A stretch of 64,000 bases of DNA from contig JAFQZZ010000005.1 in the NCBI GenBank assembly GCA_017405645.1, forward strand, positions 1 to 64,000. Reading direction: 5' to 3'. The notes beneath the pieces were generated by a model. The model did no database searches. It was not told the DNA's origin and worked only from the letters and a program-made list of their open reading frames with translations. The translations under genes were made by a program, and so were the position numbers. Positions 13,602 through 27,339 of the stretch are shown here, piece after piece (within the stretch, counting starts at the first letter, position 1; each line of letters begins with the position of its first letter). Source of the DNA: Bacillota bacterium. Its GTDB lineage: Bacteria; Bacillota; Clostridia; Peptostreptococcales; Anaerovoracaceae.

Positions 13602-13633
13602 GAGTCAATGGGGACGGTTCTTTTTGACTCATG
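13602..13633 (-). repeat. REP-like hairpin repeat, copy B
   Basis: Read on the minus strand it is identical over 32 bp to copy A at 6-37. It supplies the TGA stop of the transposase gene. The inverted ends are GAGTCAA / TTGACTC. Confidence 0.8.
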
Positions 13634-14342
13634 CTCGCTGCACAATATTCCGGTTTATCCCCGTTAAGCGATTGATCTGACGTATTGTTAGCCCCCTCCT
13701 CTTCAGTTGTCGAAGTACCTCATCCCTTTTCATCCTTTCTATGCTCTGAAGCTTCTGCGGGTTGCTATTACCCGTAATCGATTCTATCAGTTTCACCGCT
13801 TCAGAATCGGTATATCCGTTCCGGGAATCATAATCGAGAAACCGGTCATCATTTGGCGTATCCAAAAATGATTTCCATTCCTCCCGCGTGGAGAATAGTT
13901 CTGTCGGAATATGATATTCGTTTAAATAAGTGTAAGGATAGTCTCCCGCACTGCAGATTCCCGCCTTTTCGGGATTCTGGTAAATATACCGCACAACGTT
14001 TAAGAAATACTGCTCATCCTCAACGGGTTCGCTACGGAAACGGTCTTGGAACACATGGCCCACACGATCGTATTTTTTATTGTAATAAGAGGCGTAACTG
14101 ACCAAAACCTTCCTGATCAACTCAGAGTGTTCATTGGTTTTTTCAAAAAGTAAAAGATGTACATGATTACTCATCAGACAGCAAGCCGCCAACACCGATT
14201 CTGTTTCCTTCTGAAAACGATATAATGTCGAAAAGAAACGCTCATAATCCTCCTTGTCATAAAACAGATTCTCTCGATTGATTCCCCGAATAACTATGTG
14301 AACCCATCCTGTGTCTCCCAAGTATCTGATTTGCCGTGGCAT
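13629..14342 (-). CDS. REP-associated tyrosine transposase (RAYT, Y1/IS200-like)
   Basis: A 237-residue HUH-type single-strand transposase. The opening GWVHIVIRGINRENLF, the HUH pair His60/His62 (SNHVHLL) and the nucleophile region VVRYIYQNP (about 117-124) are intact. A C-terminal helix-turn-helix-like segment (GLTIRQINRLTGINRNIV) is typical of chromosomal RAYTs. The longer frame from TTG is rejected because AGGGGTGAT precedes the ATG at 14342. It is flanked by the repeats it presumably recognises. No frameshift is seen, so it may be active or domesticated. Confidence 0.9.
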   Translation of the reverse strand: MPRQIRYLGDTGWVHIVIRGINRENLFYDKEDYERFFSTLYRFQKETESVLAACCLMSNHVHLLLFEKTNEHSELIRKVLVSYASYYNKKYDRVGHVFQDRFRSEPVEDEQYFLNVVRYIYQNPEKAGICSAGDYPYTYLNEYHIPTELFSTREEWKSFLDTPNDDRFLDYDSRNGYTDSEAVKLIESITGNSNPQKLQSIERMKRDEVLRQLKRRGLTIRQINRLTGINRNIVQRA

Positions 14343-14427
14343 TCTATCACCCCTGGACAATCTTATAATATATTGGGTATTATGTCAATATTATCCTTCT
14401 ATCTTTTGTTTTGAGCGAAATCAAAAG

Positions 14428-16754: not shown

Positions 16755-16797
16755 AAATCCCGCATTCTCCCCCGGATGCGGGATTTCTCCTTTTTTG
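16755..16797. terminator. Intrinsic terminator after cls
   Basis: An 11-bp stem AAATCCCGCAT / ATGCGGGATTT (16755-16765 with 16776-16786), then CTCC and TTTTTT. The rest of 16640-16862 contains no gene that I can support. Confidence 0.8.
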
Positions 16798-16862: not shown

Positions 16863-17927
16863 TTATTCCCGAAACTCTTTCATCATTGCCGCCGCGAAAG
16901 ATGCCGCGTCTTCCCGGATGCCCCGGGAATGAACAATAGATCCCGGGTCGTTCGCGATGCGCATCATCGCAAATCCTGCCGGAAGGAAGAAGGTTTTATT
17001 CATATTCAGGGCACTGATCAGCTGCTCCGCCACGATGTCGCTGCCGCTGTATCCGGATACGATCACTGCGTAGAGCCGTTTATCGGAAAAGCTGTGAACA
17101 CGAACCAATGCGGTGAGCCGGTTGATAAACGCTGTCAGGTTCGCGCTGACGGCGTCGTTGTAATTGGGACAGATCATGACCAGCCCGTCGCAGTCAAGAA
17201 CAGCCGGATAGACGTCCTCCGTGATGACCCCGCCGTAAAAACACTTTGATTTTTCCCCGAAATGAAGGCAGGTTTCATAGGAACAGGCGCGGCAGTCATG
17301 CAGTTCACCGTTCCGCAATGAGATCTCCTGAATGTCGGCGTCCAGATGATCCCGTATCATGCTCCATAAAAGCAGTGTATTCGATGTTTCCGGGATCCCG
17401 GCATGCAGCGCCAGGAGCTTTGGACGCACGATCCTCTTCTTTTCATAACGGCAGACCCGTTCAATGAGATCCTTTACAGACAGCTTATAGGCGGTTTCAT
17501 TGTCCGTCCCCAGATTTGCGGCAATGATATTGAAATTCCGGAGCGTTCTGGTCCCTTCCACCAGAGGGCGCCCGGGAAACGCGCAACCCGCCCGGTTCGC
17601 AGAGAACACCATATGCCTGGCAGCGGATTTCGTAAACAGTTCACTGTTGCCGTCCACCACGATCCCCGCCAGGCATCCTTCGAACATCTTCCTGTTCAGA
17701 CGCATGGCCTTCAAAAGCTTCACATATTCCAGATTGATGCCGGATTCTCCCAGTTCGACCGCAAACAAAAGACGCCGCCCGCGCAGATCGGCTGCGGCTG
17801 TTTCCTCTGCCGTTTCAAGCAGATCGTATTCGTATCCTTCCAGTCCGCACTCCAGCACGCTCTTCAGACGCAGCGTTTTCTCTTCGTCCCGGCAACGGGG
17901 CCGGATCAGTGTGATTCTGTTATTCAT
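16863..17927 (-). CDS. Iron-sulfur flavoprotein-like protein (third gene of the cassette)
   Basis: This 354-residue protein's C-terminal half (about 168-354) resembles NADPH-dependent FMN reductase and iron-sulfur flavoprotein domains. It has an opening strand KLLALHAGIPETSNT and a four-cysteine cluster (Cys212, Cys215, Cys220, Cys229) placed as in Isf-type proteins. Further on are a flavin-binding strand (LVMICPNYNDAVSANL) and GYSGSD. The N-terminal half (1-165) also looks like an alpha/beta fold, possibly a degenerate second flavodoxin-like domain, but I do not recognise it. It starts 10 bp after the dehydrogenase-like gene, so it should be co-expressed. It probably carries redox equivalents for the cassette, which is inference. 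Confidence 0.7.
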   Translation of the reverse strand: MNNRITLIRPRCRDEEKTLRLKSVLECGLEGYEYDLLETAEETAAADLRGRRLLFAVELGESGINLEYVKLLKAMRLNRKMFEGCLAGIVVDGNSELFTKSAARHMVFSANRAGCAFPGRPLVEGTRTLRNFNIIAANLGTDNETAYKLSVKDLIERVCRYEKKRIVRPKLLALHAGIPETSNTLLLWSMIRDHLDADIQEISLRNGELHDCRACSYETCLHFGEKSKCFYGGVITEDVYPAVLDCDGLVMICPNYNDAVSANLTAFINRLTALVRVHSFSDKRLYAVIVSGYSGSDIVAEQLISALNMNKTFFLPAGFAMMRIANDPGSIVHSRGIREDAASFAAAMMKEFRE

Positions 17928-17937
17928 ACAAGTTCTT

Positions 17938-18912
17938 TTACCTCAGTTTCTTTAAATGGATAAAAGCCCGTTCTATTCTGTCAAAAAGGCGGTCGTCCAA
18001 GGGCAGGTCTTCTATCTCAAGTCCTTCCTCCGTCCGCCGGTTACGCATCCCCAGAAATGTCCCGTCTTCCCCGCCAAACCAGGCAGAGCTGTACTGCCAG
18101 TGACCGCGGAGATTTTCCAGGATCGAAAGCGCTCCGGAAGAAACCGCCGGTGCGATATATGGCTTGAAACCCGTCTCCCGGATCATCACATTGGCCTGAA
18201 CAGTCATTTCCGTCAGGCGTTTTGATTTTGCATCATCGTAATGATTGATATCATCTGCGACAACCAGGTCCTTTCCGTGAGGGCCAAACACACGTCCGCC
18301 TGTAAGGTACGATGCGAAAGCCGGATCCCGGCGCGCATAGTATGCCGCCCGCGCGTTCATCACGCCCAGTCCGAAGCCCTGGATCCGCTTGCTGCCGATC
18401 CCTCCCTGAAGCGCCGCCCTGCACAAAGGGTCTACGGGATCGGAAACCACAAAAAACTCTCCTTCATAGCCTGCCCGGACGGCAGCTGCCGCATATCCGT
18501 CGATCAGTTCCCTGTTTTTCTCCAGCTGTACCATGCGTACATCGACGTCCTTCCGGGACAGATCCGGCACGCCGGCTGAAGCGCAGAAAACAACCGCATC
18601 GCACTGAAAAAGGTCTTTGACCTGCACCGGCACCACTTCCGGGAACGCCGACGGATCATCCGGCATTGTTATCTGGTTCAGTTCCTGTTCCCACCGGCTG
18701 ATACTCTTCTCATTGATATCGCAGATCCCGATTTCCGAAACGACGTCGCTCCCGACGAGACGAATCGCCAAAGCAAGCGTCCCCCCCACATCACCCATAG
18801 CCAGTATGTGGATGCGATGCTTCCGGCCAGAAAGCAGTCGGTATCCCGGCACAATGAACGAATGGTCCCTCCGGATTATATCGCCCTGATACAGTTCGTG
18901 CAGTCTTCTCAT
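17938..18912 (-). CDS. Lactate/malate-dehydrogenase-like NAD-binding protein (second gene of the cassette)
   Basis: 324 residues with an LDH/MDH layout. A Rossmann glycine motif (MGDVGGTLA, about 39-47) is followed by an acidic residue at the end of beta-2 (CDIN, Asp65). The sequence also has VSDPVDPL, where LDH/MDH proteins have a conserved NPVD, and FGPHGKD with a histidine (His212) at the catalytic position. An unusual N-terminal extension (about 1-32) precedes the fold. The start overlaps the stop of the 1605-residue gene as ATGA, indicating translational coupling. It could be an NAD-dependent hydroxyacid dehydrogenase or a nucleotide-sensing relative; the substrate is unknown. Confidence 0.75.
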   Translation of the reverse strand: MRRLHELYQGDIIRRDHSFIVPGYRLLSGRKHRIHILAMGDVGGTLALAIRLVGSDVVSEIGICDINEKSISRWEQELNQITMPDDPSAFPEVVPVQVKDLFQCDAVVFCASAGVPDLSRKDVDVRMVQLEKNRELIDGYAAAAVRAGYEGEFFVVSDPVDPLCRAALQGGIGSKRIQGFGLGVMNARAAYYARRDPAFASYLTGGRVFGPHGKDLVVADDINHYDDAKSKRLTEMTVQANVMIRETGFKPYIAPAVSSGALSILENLRGHWQYSSAWFGGEDGTFLGMRNRRTEEGLEIEDLPLDDRLFDRIERAFIHLKKLR

Positions 18913-21900
18913 ATCAGTCCTTTCAGCCTTTGCAGACGTTCGATATCATCCTCCACATAGGTGCTTGCCGCCAGCGTCCTGTCAAAATCCAGACATTGGC
19001 CGACGTCTGTCAGCTTCGGCGCATTGATGACCTCCGGAAGCCGCCGCAATGTGAGCTTCCGCTGGAATTCTTTCTGATACTCCTCTTCCAGCGCCTTCAG
19101 AATGTCTCTGGCATTCTCCAGGCACACCATCGAAAAATCGTATATCGCCGCCTTGCTGCAGCTCTTCGACAGGAATCCCGGCAAAACGTACGGAAGGATC
19201 AGATTGATCGCCGTAAAATCGTCATCGATCGTTCCGGTATGCCGTTCCACTCCGTCCCCGCCTATAAAGGGGTACATGGAAGACTCCACAAACCATGCCT
19301 TCAGATTCGACAGATAATAAACGCTGTCGACGGCTCTTTTCTGAACGGACATGAGATCCTTTCCGTTTCCGGACAGGATGCCCACGATCAGTTTATGGAC
19401 CTGTACGCCGTTGTCGGTCAGCACCGGATCCAGTCTCTGCATACGGTATCCCTTGTGAAGAATATCATCCACGAGGATCACCGGACGGCAAAATGAGCGG
19501 ATCGTTCTGACCTGATCTTCAATTCCTGCATAATTCGGGTATTCCTTGATATGAAAACCGGAGAGATCCGGTGAAAAACACTTTTCCAGATGGAGTGTTT
19601 TTGTGACGGTATTCGGCACCGCCATATGATTCAGGATCTTTCCGAACGGAACGCACATATACGGTCCGAGAACACGTTTTTCGCCTTCTTCCGAAGGAAC
19701 GCCGTTCCCTTTCGTGATCATCTGCACCAGTTTGTTGTGCAGCACGAAAGAGTTGAATGAAAGAACCAACGTATCCGGAAACATGCCGGTCAGGGAATAC
19801 TGCAGCCGCTCGTGGGCTTTTTTGAGAACCTTTTCGATCCGCGGATTCTTGTTCAGGGGACTCTTCAGAACGGTGCTCATATTCTGGATCAGGGTCACCG
19901 GGCTTTTCATATCCACACCATAACAGCCTGTCGGCGTACCGTCGATCACGATCTGCTTGAACCCCTGTCTCTGAAGGACCTCCAGCAGCTTTCTGTCTGT
20001 CCGGCCGCTCTGCGGCTGGTTATAGATCGCGTATGTATAGTCGTCTTTCAGAGCCTCGGACAAGGCCTCCGTGAGGATCAGCTGATACGTATCCTCATCC
20101 AGCGAAACGGAATCGGCCCATATCCTGTCCAGGATCAGCGTCCTTCCCGGCGCCCGTTCACGGATATAGGCTGCCAGCTTCTGATTGCCGAACTCCTCAT
20201 AGAGCATTCTGGGCTCTACCGAGTGCACATGTGCTTCCGCAACGATCTCGCCATTCCTGCTTGCATCCAAAATGCTGACGGAATGCAGCGCCCCTCCGCT
20301 CCGGTCGCTCCGGAAATCCAGATCCATTGCCGGCAGAATATATTTGTACATCGGCTGACGCAGATACAGTGCATTGTCATAGATATAATTCTGCACGACG
20401 GGGTCGATCAGGCTGGAGATATCCCGGTTTTCGTCGATGTTGTCACGGATCTTCGAGGAACTGATATCCTCCAGATGCGGCGGCAGGGCCAGTTCGATGA
20501 TCCTTCCGCGGATCTTGCTTTTGCCTTCCTGAAATGCGGCTTCCCCGGCTTCATCCTTGCGGAAAGTTTCCCTCTGGAAAATGATGTGGTTCATTCCGTG
20601 AATGGAATCCGGTTCCGGATCATTCCGATAGGAGCTGGCATTCGCGATCACATCACTGCCAACCACCATAAACAATTCCTTGCCCGGAAGAAGCCGGCGC
20701 AGACGGCGAAGGTCTTCCGGATTTGCGATGTTGACCGGTTGGTCATCCGGGAAAATATAAGTGCCGATCAGATCCGCGCACGTCATATTCATGATTCGCC
20801 TGCGGTATAGACGGGGCTGCGTGTTTTTTGACCATGAAAACTCGTCCAGAGCGAGATAAACTTCATAACCGGCGTCCCGGATCGCGGTAACGATTCCTTT
20901 GTGTCCCAGGGAAAACGGATCGAAAGTCCCGGGGAAAAACGCTGCTTTCTGCACGTCATGCAAAGGCAGTTCCCCGCAGAAGAACTGATAGTCTGAAATA
21001 AACCTGTAAATATGGTTCAGTGAAGACGCATTACTGAAGAACCGCAGTATATCTCCTTCCCGATCCTCGATCAGTGTCAGCATTTTTTTGCACAGGATCA
21101 TGAAGAATCCCGCCTTCTGCTGCAGGGACAGCAGTTCCGATCCGAATACGGATCTGCCCAACACCTGAAAGGCTTCCTGGCTCACGACCCTGTGATAATT
21201 TGCCATGCCCATCAGCAGCATCCCGATGATTTCTCTGCAGCGATCATCATTTCCGTCCTTTTCATGCTGCAGAATGACGCCGAGCGTATCCAGTGTGACG
21301 GAAACCACTTTTTCATTGGCGTTGTAAAGAAGCTGCTGCAGATCCCGCATGACTTCCGTCTGCTCGTCCTGATGGAGTTTTGTGATCAGTATCCCCAGGT
21401 ATTCCGGAATGTATCTTGAAAACTGGTAGTCTCCGATTTCCAGGCCTTTCATCAGCTCCACAATGATTTCATGCTTCTGCTCCCTGCTGAGCCATTCAAA
21501 AATCGAGATCAGTCCCCGCCCTGCTTCATGGCGGATCGTGACCCTCTCGCTGACTTTCAGCAGATTCGAAAAGTGCGCCGCCGTATAGAAGACTTCTTCT
21601 GTCTGCCCTTTTGACAGCCTGTCCCGCATCACTTCAATATTGACCGCCTTGATGACCCACGGCGTATCGATTCTCAGATCATCCCGGAACATGGCCGTAT
21701 AATCGGCTTCGGTGATCTCCGGCGCCTGGAAAGAACCGGTCAACGCCAGGGCTTCCGCGGCCCTCTGCTTCAGAAAAGCGGCGCTGATCTGATACTCCCC
21801 TTCCACCGGATAAGTCAGAAGCTTCTCCAAACGGCCGGCGATCTGCGGGTGAGCCGTGCCTGCCGCGTTCTCTCTCTGTAATTGCCCGGCCATTTTCCGT

Positions 21901-23726
21901 ATCACACGAAGCGCGGCCACTTTGATCTCCGGCTCGCTTTGAAGCATTGCCTCCTCGCAGAATGCCGTGACCGTATCGATGTCCTCTTCACGAAGAATAT
22001 CAAACGGCATCTCCAGAACCGTGTCCAGCAGAATAAACATCATGGTTTCCGACCAGCCATGTTTTTTCAGCAACGCGGAAAAAGAGCTGATATAGTCGGG
22101 CACAAGGGCGTCCGCAGCATTCTCCAACAGTGCCTGAAAAGAGAATTTCAACGAATAACCCATCCATCTTTGCTGGCGTTCCGTTCTCTGAAGATCGGGC
22201 TCTGTAACGATCCTCAGATGCTCCTCCCACAGCTTCCGGCTGTCGATCAGGTCCTCCGGAAGTCGGACTCCCTCCGGCAGTTCCTTGCGGTATTCCTCAT
22301 CGTAACAGGCGATGATCTTGCCGATCAGCACTGCGGCCTGCCTGCGGATGTCTCCGCCCCGCTGCACCAGCAGCTCCTGAAGGAAATGGACCGCCATATA
22401 TTTCTGTTCTTCGTTCAGATAAGTAAAGTATTCTTCGATGGTGCCGATGTATGCCCGGATATTCTCCCACTGCTTTTCGCTTCTGGCGTTTTCGAGAAGA
22501 TCCCCGAATTCACGGACGATCCCGAACCGGTGCATCACATCGATATTATGTGCAATGGCGAGATGCTTCAGCCGAACGACTGCCTCGTCCGCCTCCAGCA
22601 GCGATGCATCCTGCCACAAGAGACGTTCCGTCTGCACTTCATCCAGCTCTGTTCTGACGCCCAGGCTCACCATGTAGTCCTCAAAATCCCTGAGCTTCCG
22701 GTATACCCTGACATAGCGGTCATGCTTTGCCTGGTCAACATTTTCAAGCTTCCCGAGGATCACATCAAAAGCCTGCCTGAGACTGTAGAACCTGATCTCT
22801 TCATGCCCGTTCTCCCAGGTGCTCTTCACGCGGAAATCCGCGTAGATCAAAAGCAGATTCTCACAGGACAGGTTTTCCAGTTCCAGGTCCCACGTGGAAT
22901 GGTTGCTCGCGATATGAGCGATCCCGGGCATATTCATGCGTAAAAGAAGCTCATCGATATAATAATAATGTAAATGCGGTATCCTCGGGATCTCTTTTTC
23001 ACGGCAGCCGAATTTGCCGATGTCATGAGCTGCCGCCGCTGCGGAGACCATCGCCAGATCCACCGGCACCTCGTTGAAACGAAGCTGCCGCGCCATATGC
23101 ATGGCAACATAGTGGACGCCTGCGATATGCCCCAGCGTGTTGAACGGCTGGATCGCCCTCACGATCACAAGGAACTCGTACAGGTAATACTCCCTGCAAA
23201 ACTTCATGAACCGGGCGTATTCTTTTCCTGCAGGATACTGCCCTGCCTCTTCTTCACTAAGAAACTGGAAATCAAAATCCGGGATCACCTGATGACGTCT
23301 CTGCCTGTCGGATTCCAGCATGGCATGGAGGATCTCACAAAAGAGCAGCTCCGGAAAAACCGAATCCTCTCCGGGCATTTCCGATCCCTGTTCCGGATAC
23401 ATCCACAACAGCAGTCTTCGATAGATGCTGTCCAGCCATCCTCCGTCCGGTTCCCGGAATCCGGGATGAAGCTTTCTTCCTGCTTCCATGAGATACGGAC
23501 GGCAGATTTCCATGACCTGCCGGCAATCGATCGGTGTTTCCTCTGCTTCAGGATTCCCCTGCAGCAACGCCGCCAATTCGTCCGCAAGCTTCTGCATCTG
23601 TAAATCTGTCACCAGTGTCTGTATGTCTTTTTTCTTCAATCTGACTCTTTTGATAAAACTGCCGCTCTGCAGGTCGCGCTGCAGGTTTTTATATAACAAC
23701 CCGCCTGTGATCCTGTCCTTGTCCAT
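18909..23726 (-). CDS. Giant HD / helical-repeat / NadD-like / PRTase-like multidomain protein (first gene of the cassette)
   Basis: 1605 residues. Domains in order are: an N-terminal helical region; an HD phosphohydrolase-like domain (about 195-300, with His205, His234-Asp235 and His271/His276); and a long helical region (about 400-900) resembling HEAT repeats. Next is a cytidylyltransferase/NadD-like domain (about 925-1115) with GTFDPFSLGH (933-942) and ISSSKIRD (from 1088). A middle domain (about 1130-1270) may be GNAT-like. A type I phosphoribosyltransferase-like domain carries VILVDDILHKG (Asp1420-Asp1421). Adjacent YqeK (HD) and NadD genes are known in Bacillota, so the fusion suggests work on NAD or dinucleotides. 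ATG 23726 follows AAAGGGAAG. Base composition is lower in GC than the flanks. Its overall function is unknown. Confidence 0.8.
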   Translation of the reverse strand: MDKDRITGGLLYKNLQRDLQSGSFIKRVRLKKKDIQTLVTDLQMQKLADELAALLQGNPEAEETPIDCRQVMEICRPYLMEAGRKLHPGFREPDGGWLDSIYRRLLLWMYPEQGSEMPGEDSVFPELLFCEILHAMLESDRQRRHQVIPDFDFQFLSEEEAGQYPAGKEYARFMKFCREYYLYEFLVIVRAIQPFNTLGHIAGVHYVAMHMARQLRFNEVPVDLAMVSAAAAAHDIGKFGCREKEIPRIPHLHYYYIDELLLRMNMPGIAHIASNHSTWDLELENLSCENLLLIYADFRVKSTWENGHEEIRFYSLRQAFDVILGKLENVDQAKHDRYVRVYRKLRDFEDYMVSLGVRTELDEVQTERLLWQDASLLEADEAVVRLKHLAIAHNIDVMHRFGIVREFGDLLENARSEKQWENIRAYIGTIEEYFTYLNEEQKYMAVHFLQELLVQRGGDIRRQAAVLIGKIIACYDEEYRKELPEGVRLPEDLIDSRKLWEEHLRIVTEPDLQRTERQQRWMGYSLKFSFQALLENAADALVPDYISSFSALLKKHGWSETMMFILLDTVLEMPFDILREEDIDTVTAFCEEAMLQSEPEIKVAALRVIRKMAGQLQRENAAGTAHPQIAGRLEKLLTYPVEGEYQISAAFLKQRAAEALALTGSFQAPEITEADYTAMFRDDLRIDTPWVIKAVNIEVMRDRLSKGQTEEVFYTAAHFSNLLKVSERVTIRHEAGRGLISIFEWLSREQKHEIIVELMKGLEIGDYQFSRYIPEYLGILITKLHQDEQTEVMRDLQQLLYNANEKVVSVTLDTLGVILQHEKDGNDDRCREIIGMLLMGMANYHRVVSQEAFQVLGRSVFGSELLSLQQKAGFFMILCKKMLTLIEDREGDILRFFSNASSLNHIYRFISDYQFFCGELPLHDVQKAAFFPGTFDPFSLGHKGIVTAIRDAGYEVYLALDEFSWSKNTQPRLYRRRIMNMTCADLIGTYIFPDDQPVNIANPEDLRRLRRLLPGKELFMVVGSDVIANASSYRNDPEPDSIHGMNHIIFQRETFRKDEAGEAAFQEGKSKIRGRIIELALPPHLEDISSSKIRDNIDENRDISSLIDPVVQNYIYDNALYLRQPMYKYILPAMDLDFRSDRSGGALHSVSILDASRNGEIVAEAHVHSVEPRMLYEEFGNQKLAAYIRERAPGRTLILDRIWADSVSLDEDTYQLILTEALSEALKDDYTYAIYNQPQSGRTDRKLLEVLQRQGFKQIVIDGTPTGCYGVDMKSPVTLIQNMSTVLKSPLNKNPRIEKVLKKAHERLQYSLTGMFPDTLVLSFNSFVLHNKLVQMITKGNGVPSEEGEKRVLGPYMCVPFGKILNHMAVPNTVTKTLHLEKCFSPDLSGFHIKEYPNYAGIEDQVRTIRSFCRPVILVDDILHKGYRMQRLDPVLTDNGVQVHKLIVGILSGNGKDLMSVQKRAVDSVYYLSNLKAWFVESSMYPFIGGDGVERHTGTIDDDFTAINLILPYVLPGFLSKSCSKAAIYDFSMVCLENARDILKALEEEYQKEFQRKLTLRRLPEVINAPKLTDVGQCLDFDRTLAASTYVEDDIERLQRLKGLI

Positions 23727-23773: not shown

Positions 23774-24643
23774 CTATTTGACCGCAGCTACCAGATCTTC
23801 CACGTCCGGTACCAGCAGGCCGTAGTCTTCATCCTCGCCGGCGCCGTTCACCAGAAGGGCGTACACGTATTTCCCGTCGGTCCAGACGGTCTTGGTGGCT
23901 TCGCCGTCCCGGTTGCCGTAGCACTTGACGGGCGTTCCGCCCACTTCCCGCGTCCAGTCGTGGAAGTAGATCGATTTCTCAAAGGATACGTCGTCATATT
24001 CGGAAGCCAGCCCCTTGCGGAAATGCAGGTCCACATTGTCCACGGAAATATCCGCATCCGCCACGCCGTCGATGTAGCTGTAAGACAGGGGAACGACTGT
24101 CCCCATGGTCGTTTCGACTCCGTCCGGCACCTTGAAGGAGCCCAGTCCGGCGCCTTCCGCCGCTTCTTCCGCCGTAGCCGCTTCTTTCCAGGCCGGTCCG
24201 CCCGGTCTTTCCACCCGGACTTCAACGCTGCCGCTGCCCGGGTTCACCACGGTGGCCATGACCATGAAATCCCCCGTTCCGACACCGGACTGGGCCAGCC
24301 CGGAACCGCTGCCGTCCAGGTCCAGCACGGCATTTGCCGGGTCAACGGATTCCATGAGTTCCTCGGGCGTGGCGTCGGCGCCCGCCTCCGTGGCCGGAAT
24401 CAGCTTGATGTTGATCACCGCATCCCCTTCCAGGGAGGACGTTATGGCAACGATCTCGCCTTCTTCGACCGTGATGGGGCCGGTGGTCACGGAATCGCCT
24501 TCCTCCGCATCCTCCGCCACGATGACGGCGGTATTATCGGCTCCCGAATCCGCCATCAGCGTCGTTTTCGTCTCTCCGCAGCCGGCCAGTACCAGGACCG
24601 CCGCCAGCAGAATCATTAAAACCGGTATTGCTCTTCTTTTCAC
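23774..24643 (-). CDS. Lipoprotein of unknown function, paralogue 1
   Basis: A 289-residue predicted lipoprotein with signal and lipobox (VLAGC). After the lipobox comes a region that aligns with the protein encoded at 26485-27339. Shared blocks are INIKLIPAT/STNAG, ELMESVDP-NAVLD, FKVPDGVET, GTVVPLSYSY and, near the C-terminus, KCYGNRDGEATKTVWTDG. The middle of each protein looks beta-rich. GTG 24643 follows GGGGGAGAAG. The two paralogues flank the SLH protein gene, which suggests a surface complex. I do not recognise the family. Confidence 0.8.
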   Translation of the reverse strand: MKRRAIPVLMILLAAVLVLAGCGETKTTLMADSGADNTAVIVAEDAEEGDSVTTGPITVEEGEIVAITSSLEGDAVINIKLIPATEAGADATPEELMESVDPANAVLDLDGSGSGLAQSGVGTGDFMVMATVVNPGSGSVEVRVERPGGPAWKEAATAEEAAEGAGLGSFKVPDGVETTMGTVVPLSYSYIDGVADADISVDNVDLHFRKGLASEYDDVSFEKSIYFHDWTREVGGTPVKCYGNRDGEATKTVWTDGKYVYALLVNGAGEDEDYGLLVPDVEDLVAAVK

Positions 24644-24723: not shown

Positions 24724-26472
24724 TCATTCGCCAAACAACTCTGCCAGCACTTCCGCCGGGTTCATTTCACGGATCCCTTCCGGGTCCGTCAGTCCGCCGT
24801 TTTCTCCGTTGATGCCCCAGCGAAGCACGCCTGCCGTTTCCCCGTCAATGGTCAGATAGACCTTCGGATCGCAGAGATAAATGGGATAACGCTCATACCA
24901 GGCCGGATAGTTTTCCGACATGTATTTGTCCGCCAGCCGGTAGGCCTCGCAGTCTTTGGCTGTGCCGATGGCGCTGATCTCCGCGCCGCCCCCGGGCTGA
25001 TTTGTCCGGCTTCTGGCCGGAGTGGAATGCACCAGCACAATGCTGCCGTCACTGCAGGTCCCCAGGGAGATCCAGACATGGCCTTTGATACTGATCACGT
25101 CCCCGGGCTTCAGCCCGCTGACATCCTGGGACCATTCGCCCCAGCCTTTGCCCGCCAGCCGCTTCGCAAAGCCGGTGGAACCGCCTACATAACCGGGCAG
25201 GCCGCTTTCCGTCTCAAAGGTGTTGTAGACCGTCCAGCCCACAAATCCGGAGCAGTCCAGTCCGGCGTAATAGTATTCGTTATACCCGCCATAGGGATAA
25301 TAGCTGTTCTCGGGATCCGCTTTTGCCGGATCGTTGTCCTCTTCCTTATAGGTATAGTTCACATCGTTCTCATTGAAGAACTTCACCCAGTCCGGGGACA
25401 CGCCGATGGTACGGGTCTGGATGGCGGAACCTTCATCCTGCCAATCCCAGCCGCCGCCGTAAATGTACAGGGCCGTGCCCGCAGGCTCCAGGGCAGTCTG
25501 CAGGAAGTTCTTCACGGTTTTCAGCCCCGGAGTGCCGCTGACCGGCGGTTCGTAGGATGCTCCGTTATCGCCGGGTATCTCCTCCGCCGAAGTCACGGTA
25601 TCCCCGTCCAGGGTGATTATAAACCGGTACCCTTCCTTCAGCACGTTCTGGATGGGATACCCGTCCTCTTTTTTGATCTTCAGGGCCCGCTCCGTCCCGT
25701 CGATTTCGAACCGGTACAGAAAACTGTCCTTGGTATCCTTGTTGATTTCCTCTTTGCCGTAGTCCTTCACGCCCAGATACAAAGCTATAGCGTCCTCCTT
25801 TTCCGGCACCTCCTTGCTGAAGAACCGCTGCAGCAGCACGGCGACCTGGGCCCGGGTTGCGGTGCCCTTCGGCTCCAGTTTCTTATTGCTTACGCCTTTC
25901 ATCAGTCCTTCTCCAATGGCCCAGGGCATGGAGTCCAGGGCGAAGTCGCTGATCTGGTCCAGGTCCTCGAACATGTCCGCCGGGATCTGGGGTTCCGGTA
26001 GGGGGGCGCCTTTGTACTTCGTGTATCTGTACAGGAAGGTCGCCATCTGCTCCCGGGTCACGGGGTCATCCGGCGCAAAGGTGGTTTCGGAAGTGCCCTT
26101 GACGATTTCCTCTGATGCGGCCCAGCCGACCGCGTCCTTATACCAGTCCGCCGTCAGGTCCGTGAAAGGGGCATCCGAAGCCGCAGGCTCTCCCTCCGCC
26201 CGGTACAGGATGGTCACCACCATCCCCCGGGTGATCTGTTCCTCCGGCCCGAAACGTTTCTCTCCCACGCCTTTCATGAGCCCTTCCCGGATCACATAAT
26301 CCGTTCCTGCGATATACCATGCGGCCGGATCCAGGTCGTCAAAATCCTGGGATGGAGAAGGCCACGTTTCGGCAAAAGCCACACTGCTCAGCCCGCCCAG
26401 GATCATTAAAATGCAAATCAGTAAAGCCGGCACCCAAAAGAACTTTGGGTGCTTCCTGTTATTCTTTCTCAT
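24724..26472 (-). CDS. SLH-domain cell-wall protein with NlpC/P60-like domain
   Basis: A 582-residue exported protein. A signal peptide (ends near SVAFA) is followed by three SLH repeats (about 40-215, each with the FxD...W...GLMKG...F.P...TRA pattern) that would bind secondary wall polymer. A linker domain follows (about 225-330). The C-terminal NlpC/P60-like domain has its nucleophile in LDCSGFVGW and its histidine in KGHVWISLG, so a peptidoglycan or related amide hydrolase is likely. It starts 12 bp after paralogue 2 and is followed by paralogue 1, so the three genes form a surface-protein operon. Confidence 0.88.
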   Translation of the reverse strand: MRKNNRKHPKFFWVPALLICILMILGGLSSVAFAETWPSPSQDFDDLDPAAWYIAGTDYVIREGLMKGVGEKRFGPEEQITRGMVVTILYRAEGEPAASDAPFTDLTADWYKDAVGWAASEEIVKGTSETTFAPDDPVTREQMATFLYRYTKYKGAPLPEPQIPADMFEDLDQISDFALDSMPWAIGEGLMKGVSNKKLEPKGTATRAQVAVLLQRFFSKEVPEKEDAIALYLGVKDYGKEEINKDTKDSFLYRFEIDGTERALKIKKEDGYPIQNVLKEGYRFIITLDGDTVTSAEEIPGDNGASYEPPVSGTPGLKTVKNFLQTALEPAGTALYIYGGGWDWQDEGSAIQTRTIGVSPDWVKFFNENDVNYTYKEEDNDPAKADPENSYYPYGGYNEYYYAGLDCSGFVGWTVYNTFETESGLPGYVGGSTGFAKRLAGKGWGEWSQDVSGLKPGDVISIKGHVWISLGTCSDGSIVLVHSTPARSRTNQPGGGAEISAIGTAKDCEAYRLADKYMSENYPAWYERYPIYLCDPKVYLTIDGETAGVLRWGINGENGGLTDPEGIREMNPAEVLAELFGE

Positions 26473-26484
26473 TTCGTCAAACCC

Positions 26485-27339
26485 CTATTTGATTTTTTCC
26501 ACCAGTGCGTCCAGGTCTTCCACGGACAGGCCGTAATCGTCGTCCCCGCCGGCGCCGTATGCCAGGAGCGCATAACTGTAATCCCCGTCGGTCCAGACGG
26601 TCTTGGTCGCTTCGCCGTCCCGGTTGCCGTAGCACTTGATGGCGATGCCGCCGACTTCACGGCTCCATTCGTATTGGTAATCGTTTTCATCGAAGGACAC
26701 ATCCGGATACATTTCCGCAAGGCCTTTGCGGGCCCGCATTTCCACTGCGGCCGTGGAGATGTCCGCTTCCGCCACTCCGTCCTGATACCCAAAGGACAGG
26801 GGAACGACCGGACCCAGGCTGGTTTCCACGCCATCCGGCACTTCGAATTTGTCCAGTCCTGCTCCGGCTGCCGCTTCCTCTCCGCTAGGCGCCAGTGTCC
26901 AGGGGCTGGACGCCCGGCCTACCCGCAGCAGAACCGTTCCGGTCCCGCCTTTCACCACGGTGGCGCAGACCATGTATTCTCCCGGCGCCAGTCCGCATTC
27001 CGTCGGTCCCGTGCCGTTGATATCTACATCCAGCACCGCATTCTTCGGGTCGACGGATTCCATCAAATCTTCCGCTTCAGCATCGATTCCGGCATTCGTT
27101 GACGGAATCAGCTTGATGTTGATTTCCGCCCCGCCTTCCAGGGCCGGCTCGATATAAAAGGTCTCCTCTTCCTCCAAAATGATCGAACCCGCCGTCAGGG
27201 TATCGCCGGGTGCGCCGCCGGCTGTAATGACCCCGGTATTATCTTCATTGATCACCATCGAAAACTCGCTCTGTCCGCATCCGGCCAGCACCATCACCAG
27301 CGCCAGCAGCACGGAAACCGTAATCACCATTCTCTTCAT
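26485..27339 (-). CDS. Lipoprotein of unknown function, paralogue 2
   Basis: A 284-residue lipoprotein with signal peptide and lipobox (VLAGC). It is a clear paralogue of the protein at 23774-24643, with the same block order and a nearly identical C-terminal KCYGNRDGEATKTVWTDG region. The ribosome-binding site lies within or next to the period-7 array (GGAGACAGAAGAAA). The gene begins 34 bp after the pyrE stop and could be read through from the pyr operon, since I see no terminator between them. Confidence 0.8.
   Translation of the reverse strand: MKRMVITVSVLLALVMVLAGCGQSEFSMVINEDNTGVITAGGAPGDTLTAGSIILEEEETFYIEPALEGGAEINIKLIPSTNAGIDAEAEDLMESVDPKNAVLDVDINGTGPTECGLAPGEYMVCATVVKGGTGTVLLRVGRASSPWTLAPSGEEAAAGAGLDKFEVPDGVETSLGPVVPLSFGYQDGVAEADISTAAVEMRARKGLAEMYPDVSFDENDYQYEWSREVGGIAIKCYGNRDGEATKTVWTDGDYSYALLAYGAGGDDDYGLSVEDLDALVEKIK

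Follow-up and report, generated by a model that had tools for sequence, protein, structure and literature searches.

NadD and the HD protein YqeK are known as fused or clustered proteins, and for a fusion of the two, the YqeK domain is reported to act as proofreader of NAD synthesis (PMC9426524). YqeK-type HD hydrolases cleave phosphoanhydride bonds; YqeK is an Ap4A hydrolase with an H21-29-H50 spacing, and under a six-ligand rule two extra histidines mark a two-metal HD site (PMC8177086). Iron-sulfur flavoproteins (ISF) carry the motif C-x2-C-x2-C-x5-7-C (PMC3164229). Here we describe a three-gene cassette for a large fusion protein, a protein resembling lactate dehydrogenase (LDH) and a four-cysteine flavoprotein. 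It is located in a stretch of 64,000 nucleotides, the window, of a Bacillota bacterium of the Anaerovoracaceae, order Peptostreptococcales (positions 1 to 64,000 of contig JAFQZZ010000005.1, assembly GCA_017405645.1). The cassette is a real, conserved and apparently undescribed system assembled from known folds, and it works most like a machine that makes and checks dinucleotides. No counterpart of the gene set as a unit was found; a literature search by domain and gene terms yielded no description of it, a weak negative, as subscription journals were thinly covered. The proteins were not filed as NadD, YqeK, GNAT acetyltransferase, LDH or ISF, because in each case a defining feature was tested and found lacking.

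Organization and conservation of the cassette

The minus strand carries all three genes as open reading frames of 1605, 324 and 354 codons. The stop of the large gene overlaps the start of the LDH-like gene by 4 bp (ATGA, 18909-18912), and 10 bp separate the latter from the flavoprotein gene. Coordinates, gene sizes, coupling and gap agree with a first-pass annotation of the sequence, as do the motif positions in the large protein (His234-Asp235; GTFDPFSLGH, 933-942; ISSSKIRD, 1088-1095; VILVDDILHKG, 1416-1426). That annotation had also taken the three genes for one system, a view borne out by gene order, co-occurrence and correlated distances.

Twenty-one long loci were compared first, then 105, of which 93 were resolvable, with no contig end interrupting them. 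Independence of the loci is incomplete: in at least two pairs, both members come from one genome represented in two collections. The order large gene, LDH-like gene, flavoprotein gene on one strand was present in 82 of the 93, with varying flanking genes. Two further loci had the LDH-like gene in place and the flavoprotein gene nearby but inverted, and nine large genes were solo. The large gene was found in 90 of 148 genomes of the order, together with the LDH-like gene in 87 and the flavoprotein gene in 82 of these 90, and none of the 58 genomes without it had a partner gene. Fisher tests gave p values of 5e-38 (LDH-like) and 8e-33 (flavoprotein), which overstate the association since the genomes are related; fragmented genomes account for several of the exceptions. 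The pairwise distance matrices of the three genes correlate (r 0.84, 0.82, 0.72; 0 of 999 permutations as high), with a contribution of shared host ancestry. Judged by their sequences, the three genes co-evolve.

Full-length homologues of the large protein (~1590-1707 aa) occur in most of the 148 genomes. Outside the order the family is rarer: it was present in 25 of 291 genomes sampled from the class and in 8 of 398 sampled from the phylum. Among the named carriers are Anaerovorax, Emergencia, Hornefia, Anaerotignum, Sedimentibacter, Pseudoflavonifractor, Oscillibacter, Clostridium fessum and Megasphaera. Beyond mgtE (5) and carbonic anhydrase (3), no fourth conserved gene was present among 70 same-strand neighbours, and no riboswitch or other Rfam RNA was detected near 18 loci. 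In two related genomes, a PrdR-like sigma-54-dependent regulator is encoded directly upstream on the same strand (L043:4989-7067, L088:5869-7968), which offers a lead to the regulation of the cassette.

Transfer between lineages had been suggested from GC counts of 29/60 inside and 39/60 outside the cassette. The counts were correct, but are a weak basis for that inference. The GC content of the whole cassette is 53.0 %, compared with 56.7 % (standard deviation 1.9) for windows of the same size sampled from the genome, 3 % of which were as low or lower; GC at third codon positions lies within one standard deviation of other genes, and GC in the flank at 12-17 kb is similarly low. A recent transfer read from GC was thus rejected. 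The nearest relative of all three window genes (59 %, 59 % and 64 % identity) belongs to another class and has no flanking gene in common with the window, an indication that the three genes travel together as one unit. Megasphaera copies nest among Anaerovoracaceae-like ones in the tree. Lateral movement of the whole cassette between Bacillota lineages at some time is likely. No match to the cassette was found in phages. The sole match filed as a plasmid (NZ_CP154629.1, Acetoanaerobium noterae pTPELB2, locus L155) does carry the cassette and, given its chromosome-sized record of 2.63 Mb, is probably a misfiled chromosome.

Domains of the large protein

The folds foreseen for the large protein were recovered, those of the HD, GNAT and phosphoribosyltransferase (PRTase) domains by predicted models and the nucleotidyltransferase by profile. 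For the HD domain, profile and predicted structure agree: Pfam HD matched with an E of 9e-4, slightly below its gathering score, and the ligands H205, H234, D235, H253, H276 and D297 are kept in 102-104 of 104 homologues. The H205-29-H234 spacing is identical to that of YqeK, and the presence of the two additional histidines indicates a two-metal site. With six ligands (H..HD..H..H..D) and the HD fold, the domain belongs to the two-metal HD phosphohydrolases. Nearly all leading structural matches of the model of residues 12-420 (predicted local distance difference test, pLDDT, 93.3; 83 sequences in the alignment) were HD proteins with Z 8-10, among them HD-GYP proteins, PgpH and YqeK (2o08, Z 9.1). 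Foldseek alone gave no match below E 0.1 for this model, so the domain is a remote family member; in the profile search, the large protein was unlisted up to E 1 for the YqeK profile TIGR00488. The long helical-repeat region that follows was likewise recovered, Pfam HEAT matching 8 of 15 homologues scanned (best E 3e-5).

The nucleotidyltransferase has the motifs GTFDPFSLGH, DEFSWSK, GSDV...Y and ISSSKIR, whose residues are unchanged in 102 or more of the 104 homologues, and Pfam CTP_transf_like matched above its cut-off (E 8e-7). Its motifs of the GxFDPxxxxH and ISSTxIR types, in agreement with the profiles, assign it to the NadD/NMNAT-like nucleotidyltransferase superfamily. The model of residues 1130-1605 (pLDDT 94.4, 79 sequences) shows a GNAT fold and then a type I PRTase. 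A possible GNAT-like part had been proposed, and the fold stood (Z up to 12.2), with tRNA and protein acetyltransferases among the nearest structures. The acetyl-CoA loop pattern R/Q-x-x-G-x-G/A, however, is missing in 95 of 104 homologues, including the window protein, and in the nine that have it some occurrences lie outside the expected position; the domain is probably not an acetyltransferase.

The PRTase part combines a loop VTKxLHxEK (1374-1382) with the VILVDDILHKG motif for phosphoribosyl pyrophosphate (PRPP), an acidic pair which, with the fold, defines membership in type I. Its model matched UPRT and XPRT in Foldseek (E 3e-5 to 8e-5) and OPRT 4rv4 (Z 10.8), and Pfam PRTase profiles matched 3 of 15 homologues scanned. 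K1376, D1420, D1421, G1426 and R1428 are almost invariant in the 104 homologues, so that the earlier reading of a PRPP-type motif gained both a predicted fold and conserved residues. Since the catalytic residues are almost invariant, the HD, nucleotidyltransferase and PRTase sites should all three be active.

Natural variants reveal the core of this protein. One clade of four short versions (1079-1228 aa, L147-L150) has lost the HD domain in all four and the GNAT fold in two. All four keep the nucleotidyltransferase and PRTase motifs as well as the LDH-like gene; the flavoprotein gene is seen in two, and the contig ends at the other two. As the short versions drop HD and in part GNAT yet keep these two domains, nucleotidyltransferase and PRTase form the core, with HD and GNAT as accessories. 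In L147 and L149 the cassette comes after recG, rsmD and coaD. In two lineages the large gene has second copies that adjoin a kinase of the APH/choline-kinase type and lack the LDH-like and flavoprotein genes, in genomes that also have a cassette-type LDH-like gene; such copies are possibly a second type of system. In two genomes of a single genus, a solo copy follows coaBC at a distance of ~100 bp and in the same orientation (L045:5750-6949, L046:12481-13707).

Partner proteins

The LDH-like protein matched Pfam Ldh_1_N with an E of 2.6e-6 and an L-LDH of the PDB with 3e-8; it scores far below LDH cut-offs, and its C-terminal part has diverged. Asp65, typical of an NAD-type Rossmann fold, is kept in 81 of 87 homologues, R126, R188 and H212 in all or all but one, while D158 and M185 are invariant. 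In the alignment with the PDB L-LDH match, we take R126, R188 and H212 to correspond to Arg109, Arg171 and His195 of LDH, D158 to Asn140 and M185 to Asp168. The catalytic Asp-His pair of LDH and malate dehydrogenase (MDH) is thus incomplete: the His and both Arg are present, Met replaces the Asp in every homologue. The flavoprotein matched Pfam FMN_red (E 1e-18, residues 169-325). The four cysteines noticed in the first-pass annotation, C212, C215, C220 and C229, are present in every one of 79 homologues, in a spacing (C-x2-C-x4-C-x8-C) other than that of ISF. A profile comparison found the two partners unrelated to each other.

Two neighbouring features of the window may be added. An IS200-like (Y1) transposase gene lies at 13629-14360, ~2.5 kb past the cassette end, and on the other side a paralogous pair with lipoprotein-like starts and without Pfam match (23774-24643 and 26485-27339) encloses an SLH-domain protein (24724-26472).

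Table 1. Features of the cassette, with positions in the window unless a locus is named
Feature	Position	Strand	Evidence
Large fusion protein, 1605 aa (helical N-terminus - HD - HEAT-like - NadD/NMNAT-like - GNAT fold - type I PRTase)	18909..23726	-	open frame; full-length homologues in the order
HD metal-dependent phosphohydrolase domain, residues ~157-364	22635..23258	-	Pfam, ligands, model
Helical-repeat (HEAT-like) region, residues ~380-915	20982..22589	-	Pfam HEAT in homologues
NadD/NMNAT-like nucleotidyltransferase, residues ~927-1128	20343..20948	-	Pfam, NCBIfam, motifs
GNAT-fold domain, residues ~1134-1275, probably not an acetyltransferase	19902..20327	-	structural match
Type I PRTase domain, residues ~1282-1480	19287..19883	-	Foldseek, structural match, motifs
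C-terminal helical extension, residues 1481-1605	18912..19286	-	predicted structure, block pLDDT >=87; conserved
LDH/MDH-superfamily protein, 324 aa, catalytic residues altered	17938..18912	-	Pfam, PDB match
FMN-reductase-like flavoprotein, 354 aa, four invariant Cys	16863..17927	-	Pfam
Terminator-like hairpin, 13 pairs, T-rich tail on both strands, 3' of third gene	16755..16786	.	pattern scan and sequence
APH/choline-kinase-like kinase beside second copies	L039:12393-13349	-	
APH/choline-kinase-like kinase beside second copies	L042:6539-7471	+	
APH/choline-kinase-like kinase beside second copies	L048:6726-7652	+	
APH/choline-kinase-like kinase beside second copies	L050:7080-8003	+	

Proposed function

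Dinucleotide cofactor synthesis, for instance by the Preiss-Handler route, uses first a PRTase and then an NMNAT-like enzyme. Our preferred, though tentative, reading is a dedicated enzyme system for an NAD-like dinucleotide, pyridine-type or other, additional to the housekeeping NAD pathway. The PRTase would couple a small heterocyclic base to PRPP, and the NMNAT-like domain would take this product and add a nucleotide to form the dinucleotide. The two-metal HD domain would hydrolyse wrong or surplus phosphoanhydride products, as reported of YqeK for NadD. The LDH-like Rossmann protein would bind the dinucleotide or use it to oxidise or reduce a carboxylate-bearing substrate, and the four-cysteine flavoprotein would supply electrons; the two partners point to a redox use. 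In this scheme all substrates, the sequence of the reactions and what each partner does are inferred. The NAD or dinucleotide module of the first-pass annotation is still the most natural conclusion from PRTase, NMNAT-like domain, two-metal HD domain and Rossmann dehydrogenase together, its NAD part being weakened by the canonical genes elsewhere.

Several observations weigh against the dinucleotide reading. The nucleotidyltransferase reached 41.6 bits with the NadD profile TIGR00482 (E 1e-10), whose curated cut-off is 112 bits. In a by-eye alignment, the large protein apparently has a Tyr where NadD has its pyridine-stacking Trp; with the low score, this exchange leaves room for a substrate other than a pyridine nucleotide. 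The LDH-like protein has, to go by the alignment, lost the catalytic Asp (now M185) and Asn (now D158). In the two genomes with solo copies next to coaBC (G110, G133), the large gene truly stands alone, without any LDH-like or flavoprotein gene, and together with the kinase-linked second copies they argue that the partners are not always needed. Finally, canonical pncB, nadD and yqeK are present elsewhere in the host genome, with 158.9 bits for the true NadD (TIGR00482) and 121.9 bits for the host's own YqeK (TIGR00488). The cassette is therefore not the housekeeping NAD route, and its product would be either some other dinucleotide or NAD made out of uncommon precursors. A role as stand-in for missing NAD genes was rejected, its own genome holding all three. 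Both pncB and nadC fell below thresholds in only four genomes with the large gene, one of them 75 % and one 90 % complete.

A bolder form of this reading, in which the cassette makes and uses a natural non-NAD(P) dinucleotide as cofactor or signal, is rather unlikely. PRTase and nucleotidyltransferase would build the compound, the HD domain would police it, and the re-tooled dehydrogenase and the four-cysteine flavoprotein would be its dedicated users. Re-engineered enzymes that produce nicotinamide cytosine dinucleotide inside cells have been described (PMC8035330); to that extent a natural non-NAD dinucleotide is chemically reasonable.

Alternatively, a side path of NAD repair or salvage could lead damaged or non-standard precursors to ordinary NAD, with LDH-like protein and flavoprotein reducing or oxidising damaged pyridine rings. 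NadD-like and HD domains on one chain, as in the proofreading YqeK-NadD fusion (PMC9426524), and a partner of the NAD-type Rossmann kind are in line with such repair. The complete set of pncB, nadD and yqeK in the host speaks against it, and the occurrence of the cassette shows no link with the NAD route (nadC in 49 of 90 genomes with the large gene versus 23 of 58 without), so we regard it as unlikely.

Some type I PRTase folds act as regulators (PyrR). A nucleotide-stress sensor, in which HEAT scaffold and HD domain hydrolyse an alarmone such as Ap4A while PRTase and nucleotidyltransferase mainly sense PRPP and nucleotides, would make sense of this, of the large repeat scaffold and of a two-metal HD domain resembling the Ap4A hydrolase YqeK. 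It is improbable, for nucleotidyltransferase and PRTase have nearly invariant catalytic residues, whose conservation speaks against mere sensors, and the HD domain is the very part dropped in the short variants. Equally, the enzymes might transfer nucleotidyl or phosphoribosyl groups to a macromolecule or to a small metabolite and so modify it, with HEAT region and GNAT fold holding the target and, in the second type of system, the APH-like kinase preparing it. The GNAT fold without acetyl-CoA loop, its closeness to tRNA and protein acetyltransferases and the kinase gene beside four second copies fit this picture, which leaves the strict tie to dehydrogenase and flavoprotein unexplained and assigns a role to a dispensable GNAT domain; we hold it to be improbable as well.

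A function related to coenzyme A, such as salvage or repair of pantetheine-type compounds, is very unlikely. The copies ~100 bp after coaBC, the short variants near recG-rsmD-coaD and the GTFDPF..GH motif, which is also CoaD-like, come to mind; the genomes concerned are few and related, the 70 same-strand neighbours have no general CoA link, and CoA synthesis needs no PRTase. Anti-phage defence, an option in the first-pass annotation, is highly improbable. The large multi-enzyme protein and the patchy spread outside the order would suit it, but PADLOC gave no match for large protein or flavoprotein and only a short, weak Cas6-like one (E 1e-3) for the LDH-like protein, phage and plasmid comparisons lent no support, the neighbours are not defence genes, and most genomes of the order have the cassette.

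Comparison with known systems

Most genomes of one clostridial order encode this five-domain enzyme, with its three intact active sites and a pair of almost obligate redox partners, and it has a scattered occurrence in gut Lachnospiraceae, Oscillospiraceae and others; many anaerobic bacteria of gut and soil carry the gene set. If the cassette builds an NAD-like molecule, common gut anaerobes would gain a further cofactor pathway; if its task is to repair or check NAD, the YqeK-NadD proofreading idea would be extended to a dedicated machine.

With L-lactate and malate dehydrogenases the LDH-like protein shares the NAD-type Rossmann part, the two substrate Arg and the catalytic His, but differs in Met for Asp and Asp for Asn in 87 of 87 homologues. 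The flavoprotein has the FMN-reductase fold and a compact four-cysteine motif in common with ISF of anaerobes, whereas the cysteine spacing is different and ~165 N-terminal residues are extra. The PRTase domain resembles OPRT, UPRT and XPRT in fold and two-acidic PRPP motif, and OPRT in the preceding Lys-bearing loop; unlike these it is fused to a nucleotidyltransferase, and its sequence similarity to them is very low. The closest parallel is the NadD-YqeK pair and its mycoplasma fusion (PRK07152; PMC9426524), likewise a NadD/NMNAT-type nucleotidyltransferase and a two-metal HD domain in one protein. In the large protein the order is reversed, a HEAT-like region lies between the domains, the NadD cut-off is not reached and a YqeK profile match is missing; the cassette adds PRTase, GNAT fold, dehydrogenase and flavoprotein, in a genome that has ordinary nadD and yqeK too. 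Proofreading is nevertheless a plausible logic common to both.

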